DNA from: Thiofilum flexile DSM 14609
Lineage (GTDB): Bacteria; Pseudomonadota; Gammaproteobacteria; Thiotrichales; Thiotrichaceae
Reading direction: 5' to 3'
Length of the DNA stretch: 64,000 nt
Assembly: GCF_000380185.1 (NCBI RefSeq)
Contig: NZ_KB904780.1
Location: 62,001 to 126,000 of the forward strand
In this document: positions 10,936 through 14,468 of the stretch, piece by piece
Layout of the letters: each line of letters opens with the position of its first letter
How positions within the stretch are numbered: position 1 is the first letter of the stretch
Made by a program: the position numbers and the translations under genes
The notes under the pieces: model-generated
Told to the model about the DNA's origin: nothing
The model's input: only the letters and a program-made list of their open reading frames with translations
The model's database searches: none

Positions 10936-11523
10936 TTATTGCAAACGCCCACGTAACCGGCTACTACGGGGAAAATGAGCGCATAAAAACTCCATCTGAT
11001 CTACTAAAATATGTCTACCTTGTAAATAGACATATTCCGCATAGGTAGGCTGAAAAGGAATGGCTAAGAGTGGCATATGTGCCTGCTCTGGCGTACGCCC
11101 CCCTTTGAGACTATTGCAATGACGGCAAGCGGTCACAACATTAGTCCATGTATCCTGCCCTCCTTGCACGAGCGGACGAATATGATCACGGGATAAATGC
11201 CGCTCACTAAAGGTTTGACCACAATACATACAAGTATGGCTATCCCGTCTAAATAAGGCCGGATTATTTAGAGGCGGTATATATTGCTGACTATTAAGCC
11301 CATGCTGACTACCAATAGTTGCGATAATAGAATTGATTTCAAGCAAACTTTGTTCACCTGTACGCGCATTAACGCCCCCATGTATCACTAATAGTGATGT
11401 GCCACAGGTATAGGCGACTTGATCGGTACAATATAATTTTACTGCGGTTTGGAAGTGAATCCATTCAAGTGGTAACCCACTGATATCCGTTCGCAAAATA
11501 GCTTGATTTAAGTTTTGTTCCAT
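10936..11523 (-). CDS. HNH endonuclease family protein
   Basis: The C-terminal half is a typical HNH nuclease module of the HNH_5 kind. A zinc knuckle CMYCG (near 106) and CRHCN (near 142) brackets the ββα-metal core RDHIRPLVQGGQDTWTNVVTAC; the catalytic His is in RDHI. The N-terminal 95 residues (GLPLEWIHFQTAVKLYC...) match the housekeeping HNH proteins of proteobacteria that are found outside mobile elements. Their function is not established. Start: ATG at 11523 has AAGGA 7 nt upstream, whereas the in-frame ATG at 11541 has none. Isolated gene, 195 aa. Confidence 0.85.
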   Translation of the reverse strand: MEQNLNQAILRTDISGLPLEWIHFQTAVKLYCTDQVAYTCGTSLLVIHGGVNARTGEQSLLEINSIIATIGSQHGLNSQQYIPPLNNPALFRRDSHTCMYCGQTFSERHLSRDHIRPLVQGGQDTWTNVVTACRHCNSLKGGRTPEQAHMPLLAIPFQPTYAEYVYLQGRHILVDQMEFLCAHFPRSSRLRGRLQ

Positions 11524-11643
11524 ATCGTTATCCTTATGCATTAGTCTGTCAGCACTGATAGGCTCCTATCCTACTGAGTAAGTGAGTAAAAAAGTTAAAG
11601 CACATGACAAGCACTTAACGAGCATATTAACGAAACCTAATGC

Positions 11644-11706: not shown

Positions 11707-11811
11707 ATGTTTAAATTAGATTTCGGCTTTGGTTTACCTATGGCTATTGTGGTGGCATTGATTGCATGGTCATGGTTTTCCTTCTTTTCGGTGGTATTCT
11801 TTGGTAATTAA
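11707..11811 (+). CDS. Small membrane protein, 34 aa
   Basis: A short reading frame with the marks of a real gene: a promoter-like pair at 11644-11673, a ribosome site (AAAGGT, 7-8 nt before ATG) and a strong terminator 18 nt after the stop. The peptide begins MFKLDFGFGLPMAIVVALIA and ends WSWFSFFSVVFFGN, so it is one hydrophobic helix from about residue 9 to 32 with aromatic residues at its end. Such micro-proteins are often subunits or regulators of membrane complexes. No family is recognised and no partner is encoded next to it. Function unknown. Confidence 0.6.
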   Translation: MFKLDFGFGLPMAIVVALIAWSWFSFFSVVFFGN

Positions 11812-11828
11812 GCCCTTTTGAATAGACC

Positions 11829-11858
11829 AAAAAAAAGCCGCTGAGTGCGGCTTTTTTT
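11829..11858. terminator. Bidirectional terminator between the small gene and rpoH
   Basis: GCCGC (11837-11841) and GCGGC (11847-11851) form a GC core, extended by A-run/T-run pairing on both sides, with a 5-nt loop TGAGT. A U-run follows on each strand, so it can end both the 34-codon gene and rpoH. Confidence 0.88.
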
Positions 11859-11871
11859 ACGGAAGTGATGG

Positions 11872-12738
11872 TTATACTTCCAAAGCGACCGCCTGTTTCA
11901 ATTTCTTAACCGCTACATTTTCTAGCTGACGTATCCGTTCAGCCGAGACATTATAACGTTCTGCTAGCTCTTGTAGGGTGGCCTTTTCTTCAGCCAACCA
12001 ACGACTTGCTAAAATATCACGGCTACGATCGTCCAACTCCGCCAATGCAAGCGCAAAGCGTTCACGCGTAAACTCTTCCCATTCCTCGTTTTCGAGAACC
12101 TCAGAAGGATCATACGTGCTACTGGCTAAATATTGTTGCGGCGCATAATGCTGCTCACTGTCTTCTTGATCCGGTGACAGATCAAACGCCACATCTTGTG
12201 CGCTCATGCGCTTTTCCATCTCTAACACATCCGCTGTTGTGACCCCTAGATCATTAGCAACGGATTGAGCCTCTTGATGAGTCAGCCAACCTAAGCGATT
12301 TTTACTACTACGTAAATTAAAAAATAGTTTACGCTGAGCTTTGGTAGTCGCAACCTTAACAATCTTCCAATTTCGCAGGATAAATTCGTGAATTTCTGCG
12401 CGAATCCAATGAACAGCAAACGAAATCAGGCGCACATTCACCTCAGGATCAAAACGTTTGACCGCTTTCATGAGGCCAATGTTCCCTTCCTGAATTAAAT
12501 CACCTAATGCTAGACCATAACCATTATAGCCCCTAGCTACTTTCACCACAAAACGCAGGTTATGTAATACCAAACGCCGGGCTGCATCTAAGTCATCATA
12601 TAAGCGTAGGCGTGTAGCTAATTCTTTTTCTTCGTCGGCCTCCAATACGGGAATCGCATGAATGGCATGAACATAGCTCTCCAAGCTCCCCACGGGGCTT
12701 GGTAAAGTCTGTCCACGAAGCATCAATGCTTGACTCAT
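11872..12738 (-). CDS. rpoH: RNA polymerase heat-shock sigma factor (sigma-32)
   Basis: Directs RNA polymerase to heat-shock promoters. 288 aa. Region 2 is seen as [15 protein letters not shown] ... [18 protein letters not shown] ... [19 protein letters not shown]. It is followed by the RpoH box QRKLFFNLR (residues 135-143), unique to sigma-32. Region 4 carries the helix-turn-helix near [19 protein letters not shown]. Start: ATG at 12738 has AAGGAG upstream. An exact CIRCE element overlies its likely promoter (12791-12820), suggesting repression by HrcA. It is divergent from a long coiled-coil gene and ends in the terminator at 11829-11858. Confidence 0.96.
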
Positions 12739-12790
12739 AATGGGGTAATCTCCTTAAGATAAATTATATTTTAGTACTTGACTTTGGCTT

Positions 12791-12820
12791 ATTTTAGCAC
12801 TCTTTAATTAGGAGTGCTAA
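12791..12820 (-). promoter_or_regulatory. Candidate rpoH promoter inside the CIRCE element
   Basis: On the minus strand TTAGCA (12820-12815) and TAAAAT (12796-12791) are separated by 18 nt. The -10 matches 5 of 6 and the -35 matches 4 of 6. The start would fall near 12784, giving a leader of about 45 nt. The pair is almost congruent with CIRCE, so bound HrcA would block it. Confidence 0.5.
12794..12820. promoter_or_regulatory. CIRCE element (HrcA operator)
   Basis: TTAGCACTC-N9-GAGTGCTAA: all 18 arm positions equal the CIRCE consensus and the spacer is the required 9 nt. It lies 55 nt upstream of the rpoH start and 124 nt upstream of the divergent gene. CIRCE is the operator of the heat-shock repressor HrcA; no hrcA gene is in this window. 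Confidence 0.93.
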
Positions 12821-12944
12821 TTTTTTTAGTTAAAATCACTTGACAGCTCGTAAACAGAATTGCTACCTCTGTACTCCTCATCCTTTAGCTACCTTTTAAG
12901 TGCTTTTATGATCAAACGATCTTATCACTTAGAGTAGTTCTACT

Positions 12945-14468
12945 ATGCTTGGCCCTACAGATCATTCCACTGACGCTCATGCCACTGGCAATGCTCTCAA
13001 AGCAAACTCTGGCTTAGTCAATATATCCCTCGATGACCGGGGTACTGAACAACATATTCAAGTACTAGAGGCCGAACTCGCTAAACGCAATCAACTGATT
13101 GAAGAGTTCGAGTACCTACTAGAAACACGTACTAAGCAAATTAACGATAAAGACTTGCAACTACAAAACAAAATACGTGAATTGCAAAGCCATCTAGAAC
13201 AACAAGAATATAGCTATGTTCAGGATAATAAATCCGCCCCCGACATCGTTAATCAAATTAATAATTTACGCAAACAATTAGTCAATAAAGATCAAGACCT
13301 TTATCAGCTTAAGTCACAGTATGAAGAAAACTTACAGCAACGGGATAAGCAACTCGAAGCACGCGAACGTCTACTTGCTAAACGCCATCGTGAAATTGAA
13401 ATTCGTGATCAACAACTCGCCAAGCGTGACGAGATCATTACTGCTTTAGAGTCAAAGTTACTCGAACTGAATCGTTGGACACACGAGCACCAAAAACAAC
13501 AAGCCCAAACCGCCAATATTGTCGCCGATCACCAACAAATGATTAGCGAACAAGAGCAACACCTCTTACAACGCGATCAGCAACTAGCGGAGCGGGACAA
13601 ACAAATTGCTCAACGTGATCAAGAAGTTAGCGCTAAAGCAGAGCTTTTGTCTCAACGCGACTCGCATTTAACCGCACAAACTTCACAGCTCACTAGTCGT
13701 GATCAGGCCATTCAGGAGCGTGATAAAACTATTCAAGAATTACAGCAACATATTGAAAAACTGGATGCTATTTTGCAAGCTCGTCAGGATAAATTAGAGT
13801 CTTGCCACCATCAGTTTGTTAAATTAGAAAAACTCTTACTGACTAAATCACTCTATACTGAACACCTAGAGCGCCAACTACAAGAATGGCAATTACATCT
13901 GCACGAACGTGAACAGGCACTCACTCAGCAACAACAACAGGTAGTTCAGTTACAAAATAGCTTATTGGAAAAAGACCACCTAATTGCTGAAAAAGATCAA
14001 ACCTTACTCAAACAGGGGCATAGCCTAGAGCAACACACGTTACAGCTTCAGGATCGGGAAAAACAGTTGAGCCAACGCGAGCAAAATGTAGAGCAGCGTC
14101 AACAGAGTGTGAGTACCTTAGAGGCAGAACTCAAAACACAATTAGGCAAACTAGGTGAGCTATTAATAGCACCGCAACATCCTCTCACAGGACACACCGA
14201 GCTACTCAGACAAGCCCAACACCGTATAGAACAACGGGAGCAACACCTACAGCGCTTAGAACAACAACTGGCGCAGCGTTTAGAAAGCTTACAAAGCTAT
14301 CAGGAGTCAGAAAGCAACCGTTACAATGAAGCACTCAAACAACGTGAGAAAGTCATTCAGATCAAAACGCAAATGATTGAACAGCTCAATCAGCAATTAC
14401 TAGTTAGAGACAAAATCTTACGCCAGCGTGATCAACAACTGCATAAATTACGCTCACCCGTGTATTAA
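12945..14468 (+). CDS. Long coiled-coil protein of unknown function
   Basis: A 507-aa soluble protein that is almost entirely predicted coiled coil from about residue 35 to the end. It is built of loosely repeated units of the type QQLAxRDxxI / ERDKxIxxR (for instance DQQLAKRDEIITALE and DQQLAERDKQIAQRD). It is very rich in Gln, Glu, Arg and Leu. There is no signal peptide, membrane helix or enzymatic motif. The first 30 residues are low-complexity and polar. The gene is divergent from rpoH and shares its upstream region, including the CIRCE element. Structural or scaffolding roles are typical for such proteins, but none is shown here. The ribosome site is weak. Confidence 0.8.
   Translation: MLGPTDHSTDAHATGNALKANSGLVNISLDDRGTEQHIQVLEAELAKRNQLIEEFEYLLETRTKQINDKDLQLQNKIRELQSHLEQQEYSYVQDNKSAPDIVNQINNLRKQLVNKDQDLYQLKSQYEENLQQRDKQLEARERLLAKRHREIEIRDQQLAKRDEIITALESKLLELNRWTHEHQKQQAQTANIVADHQQMISEQEQHLLQRDQQLAERDKQIAQRDQEVSAKAELLSQRDSHLTAQTSQLTSRDQAIQERDKTIQELQQHIEKLDAILQARQDKLESCHHQFVKLEKLLLTKSLYTEHLERQLQEWQLHLHEREQALTQQQQQVVQLQNSLLEKDHLIAEKDQTLLKQGHSLEQHTLQLQDREKQLSQREQNVEQRQQSVSTLEAELKTQLGKLGELLIAPQHPLTGHTELLRQAQHRIEQREQHLQRLEQQLAQRLESLQSYQESESNRYNEALKQREKVIQIKTQMIEQLNQQLLVRDKILRQRDQQLHKLRSPVY

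Follow-up and report, generated by a model that had tools for sequence, protein, structure and literature searches.

A predicted HrcA operator on the rpoH promoter of Thiofilum flexile and its conservation among hrcA-bearing Gammaproteobacteria

The window analysed here is a stretch of 64,000 nucleotides from Thiofilum flexile DSM 14609, and the gene for the heat-shock sigma factor sigma-32, rpoH (288 aa), lies on its minus strand at 11872-12738. The product passes both RpoH family models (412.8 bits for NF005143, with a cut-off of 241, and 393.2 bits for TIGR02392 rpoH_proteo, with a cut-off of 323.1). The initial annotation, which was made from the letters of the DNA alone, was therefore right to call this gene rpoH, and RpoS or RpoD is ruled out by the family cut-offs. 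A Shine-Dalgarno sequence, AAGGAG, precedes the gene at 12750-12755 (minus strand). Farther upstream, at 12794-12820 on the minus strand and 55 nt from the rpoH ATG (12738), stands a CIRCE element, the predicted operator of the repressor HrcA. It reads TTAGCACTC-N9-GAGTGCTAA without a mismatch at any of the 18 arm positions (0/18), just as was first noticed, and its 9-nt spacer is CTAATTAAA when read toward rpoH. The range originally given, 12791-12820, contains the element, and its remainder is the end of a -10 hexamer. In the window no other stretch matches CIRCE at three mismatches or fewer, where dinucleotide shuffles give an expectation of 0.02; this and a control with permuted palindromes, described below, rule out a chance origin. 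On the other side of the element, a divergent gene at 12945-14468 (plus strand) encodes a protein of 507 aa that consists almost entirely of coiled-coil repeats. Beyond the other end of rpoH, 10936-11541 (minus strand) encodes a 201-aa HNH-type protein, which matches the HNH part of IscB/Cas9d models weakly and well under their cut-offs.

Does this organism have a repressor to use such a site? In the genome examined (3.79 Mb in 71 contigs), there is one copy of hrcA, which scores 348.3 bits against a family cut-off of 197.2, so that the proposal of HrcA control does not fall for want of the repressor gene. Neighbours of hrcA are neither grpE nor dnaK. At two mismatches or fewer, the whole genome holds two CIRCE sites, both exact, one at rpoH and the other before groESL; the latter is the only further good site that the genome search suggested with the initial annotation has brought to light. 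It lies at G000:C17:8918-8944, 73 nt before the groES ATG. Thus, rpoH carries the same operator with exact arms as groESL, the usual target of HrcA, in the same genome. The two sites differ in placement: the groESL element directly follows a promoter-like TTGACA-N16-TATTAT, in the likely start region, whereas the rpoH element overlies the -35/-10 region. A third CIRCE-like site, with three mismatches, is inside a coding ORF of 435 aa and was treated as a chance match. No CIRCE at three mismatches or fewer was found before hrcA or before grpE-dnaK-dnaJ in this genome, and the latter genes are on another contig, which has no CIRCE. Since there are only two good sites, the predicted HrcA regulon consists of groESL and rpoH. 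In many genomes of the family, the second CIRCE, presumably that of groESL, has the same mismatch (GACTGCTAA or TTAGCAGTC; for example at G003:C2:1227833-1227859), and because the rpoH element is exact, the operator seems to be kept more strictly at rpoH than at groESL.

How widespread is this arrangement? The survey took as much as 450 nt of the sequence preceding rpoH, in 33 regions from within the family and in 149 from other families of the Gammaproteobacteria, most of these families being represented by one genome, and scored the best CIRCE in each; three mismatches or fewer define a site. All 33 regions of the same family have CIRCE (31 exact, two with one mismatch). In the other families, 99 of 109 regions from hrcA-positive genomes have it: 52 are exact, 33 have one mismatch, nine have two and five have three, while the remaining ten have six or more. 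Where hrcA was not detected, the count drops to 5/40. Thirty permuted palindromes searched in the same regions gave one match at three mismatches or fewer in 5460. The association between hrcA and the rpoH element, with the family excluded, has a Fisher p of about 1e-19, a value that ignores phylogeny. Exceptions exist on both sides, namely the ten hrcA-positive regions just mentioned and the site-keeping genomes without hrcA. Among the latter are fragmentary assemblies and genomes with an hrcA-bearing relative in their own genus (G051 against G184), so the absence of hrcA there may be an assembly gap. The element is present in Dyella, Methylocaldum, Haliea, Halothiobacillus and Pseudoalteromonas, as well as in many Betaproteobacteria (Nitrosomonas, Pandoraea, Trinickia, Herbaspirillum); it is degenerate in Xanthomonas pisi, and absent from the upstream regions checked in Kluyvera, Photorhabdus, Vibrio, Shewanella, Aeromonas, Haemophilus and Pseudomonas. 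One genome (G067) has two full rpoH genes, at G067:C325:258-1058 and G067:C289:38617-39417, and CIRCE at one of them only. Within the family, the arms show a pairwise identity of 0.99, spacer positions 1-3 one of 0.77, spacer positions 4-9 one of 0.32 and the flanks one of 0.31-0.38, as expected of an operator under selection on its arms. The element is lost where hrcA is lost. From these counts, HrcA control of rpoH is predicted to be near-universal in hrcA-bearing Gammaproteobacteria and to occur in many Betaproteobacteria too. What had first been taken for an unusual arrangement in T. flexile is rather the rule in the hrcA-bearing members of its class.

The promoter beneath the operator needs more caution. 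TTAGCA-N18-TAAAAT, at 12820-12791 on the minus strand, is the sole sigma-70-like site in 11750-13050. Its -35-like hexamer TTAGCA (12815-12820) is within the rpoH-distal arm of CIRCE, and its -10-like hexamer TAAAAT (12791-12796), preceded by TG (12799-12798), is on the rpoH-proximal arm. The promoter-like sequence pointed out earlier is thus present over CIRCE, while the number of such matches in the region is no more than chance (one, with a shuffle mean of 2.2), and the claim of a promoter has to come from conservation. Besides, the sequence of CIRCE itself resembles TTGACA-N18-TATAAT, and the overlap of operator and promoter may partly reflect the operator sequence. It might be supposed, then, that the operator serves another, unseen promoter of rpoH and that TTAGCA-N18-TAAAAT is a mere by-product of CIRCE, a view to which the unexceptional match count lends some weight. 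The bases that complete the -10 outside the arm speak against it. The three bases after the right arm show pairwise identity of 0.71 in the family against a background of 0.31, the final T of the hexamer is found in 121 of 136 related sites, and the continuation of the right arm completes a sigma-70 type TGCTAAAAT in many relatives; the groESL CIRCE of the same genome does not have these conserved bases. An unseen promoter is therefore unlikely, though it deserves to be kept in mind.

Two other explanations would take the element away from rpoH altogether. As a palindrome between two divergent genes, it might act mainly on the coiled-coil gene, or on both genes, and this gene, with weak relatives, is divergent from rpoH in six family members too. 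These are few, so the gene is unlikely to be the target. In many relatives the upstream neighbour of rpoH is FtsX, and CIRCE is retained beside FtsX or yet another gene; its conservation follows rpoH rather than the gene upstream, and it is therefore assigned to rpoH. In T. flexile, the distance of the element to rpoH is 55 nt, compared with 124 nt to the ATG of the coiled-coil gene, and the plus strand has no promoter-like site in the scan of 11750-13050. Regulation directed at the divergent gene is thus very improbable. The inverted repeat could also be an RNA hairpin or a terminator, for on the plus strand its stem is followed by seven T (12794-12827), which the scan scores as terminator-like. 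Against this, it is the sequence of the arms that is conserved (99%), with no compensatory changes, and the arms are gone when hrcA is gone. Moreover, the predicted start of rpoH is downstream of the stem, which would leave the stem outside the rpoH mRNA. We regard this explanation as very improbable.

We therefore consider it very probable that 12794-12820 serves HrcA as its operator at the rpoH promoter and that rpoH is repressed by HrcA in a way tied to GroEL. Observed are the operator, its position, the presence of hrcA, the second site at groESL, the conservation and the joint loss with hrcA; binding of HrcA, repression and regulation, the start site of rpoH and the dependence on GroEL are predicted from the sequence. 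That the activity of HrcA depends on GroEL is established in other systems. In unstressed cells, GroEL would keep HrcA active, and HrcA would bind the predicted operator, spanning -35 and -10 and shutting RNA polymerase out of the sigma-70 promoter, so that rpoH and groESL would both be repressed. Upon heat, misfolded proteins would occupy GroEL, HrcA would become inactive, and both rpoH and groESL would rise. Sigma-32 would then turn on the rest of the heat-shock genes, among them the CIRCE-free grpE-dnaK-dnaJ of this genome, and newly made GroEL would make HrcA active again and close the loop. The idea that the HrcA system sits above sigma-32 is supported at the level of prediction, with hrcA present and CIRCE conserved with rpoH and lost with hrcA.

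In many relatives, Halothiobacillus among them, a further element is woven into the operator. When about 136 gammaproteobacterial rpoH upstream regions (L008-L218) were aligned on CIRCE, a sigma-E type GGAACTT-N16-TCTNA appeared in register with it, the -10 of which is made up of the left arm's last bases and the start of the spacer. GGAACTT is the -35 box of E. coli RpoE (PMC8103513). At one mismatch or fewer, the box is found in about half of the relatives; it stands exactly at -16 from the CIRCE start in 55 of 136 sites, at -17 in ten and at -15 in two, and almost nowhere else. The spacer starts with T.A in 82 of 136 sites, so that the arm end and the spacer read TCTNA exactly 16 nt past GGAACTT. 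Pairwise identity of the box in the family is 0.63. The association between the box and the T.A spacer start is borderline (p = 0.056), and the case for a joint sigma-E element draws on the constant spacing of 16 nt, the T.A spacers and the pattern of E. coli rpoH P3. The same GGAACTT-N16-TCTNA precedes rpoH at P3 in E. coli (PMC8103513; PMC2215328), where P3 is sigma-E dependent (PMC2215328), and SigE of Bordetella transcribes rpoH in vitro (PMC3490749). The upstream regions checked in Kluyvera and other enterics have no CIRCE, and CIRCE-less relatives retain the sigma-E pattern, as in GGAACTT-N16-TCTGA of Kluyvera. T. flexile, on the other hand, has no recognisable sigma-E pattern. Although a true copy of rpoE is present in the genome, GGAACTT-N16-TCTNA was not found at -16 or in the 450 nt upstream of rpoH. 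At the usual place of the box (12828-12836, minus strand) the register 12836-12830 reads ATTTTAA, an AACT being displaced from it by 3 nt, and the CIRCE spacer starts with CTA. Since the sigma-70 element is intact, HrcA would act here on the sigma-70 promoter alone. We incline, by a modest degree, to the view that in hrcA-bearing Gammaproteobacteria a single HrcA operator and two promoters are interleaved as one conserved composite before rpoH. The sigma-E -10 would consist of the two final bases of the left arm with the spacer start, and the sigma-70 -10 of the end of the right arm with the three bases that follow. E. coli rpoH P3 would then be a remnant after the loss of HrcA, and T. flexile would have lost its sigma-E element secondarily.

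The link between CIRCE and rpoH is itself not new, as the initial annotation had rightly suspected, because an exact CIRCE before rpoH of Geobacter sulfurreducens has been published (PMC545781, Table 8). That element is the same exact TTAGCACTC-N9-GAGTGCTAA, lying at -51 as counted from the rpoH start, and groESL has a CIRCE there too. Geobacter sulfurreducens is a Deltaproteobacterium and, unlike T. flexile, also has CIRCE at its hrcA-grpE-dnaK-dnaJ (PMC545781). In the open literature, which covers the field in part, we found no report of HrcA on rpoH beyond Geobacter, and none of the interleaving of CIRCE with a sigma-E promoter or of class-wide joint loss with hrcA. Permina and Gelfand reportedly studied beta-, gamma- and epsilon-proteobacteria, and probably some rpoH sites were included.

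In teaching, repression by HrcA and activation by sigma-32 are usually kept apart as two heat-shock circuits, and E. coli serves as the proteobacterial model. The rpoH CIRCE is missing in the relatives of E. coli, Vibrio and Pseudomonas. The survey indicates that most Gammaproteobacteria that keep HrcA place this repressor above sigma-32, and that the well-known model organisms have lost HrcA. Interleaving with a sigma-E type promoter would give a precise and testable account of how the load on chaperonin and envelope stress could be weighed together: if the composite is real, both of these signals would come together with housekeeping transcription within a single stretch of about 45 bp.
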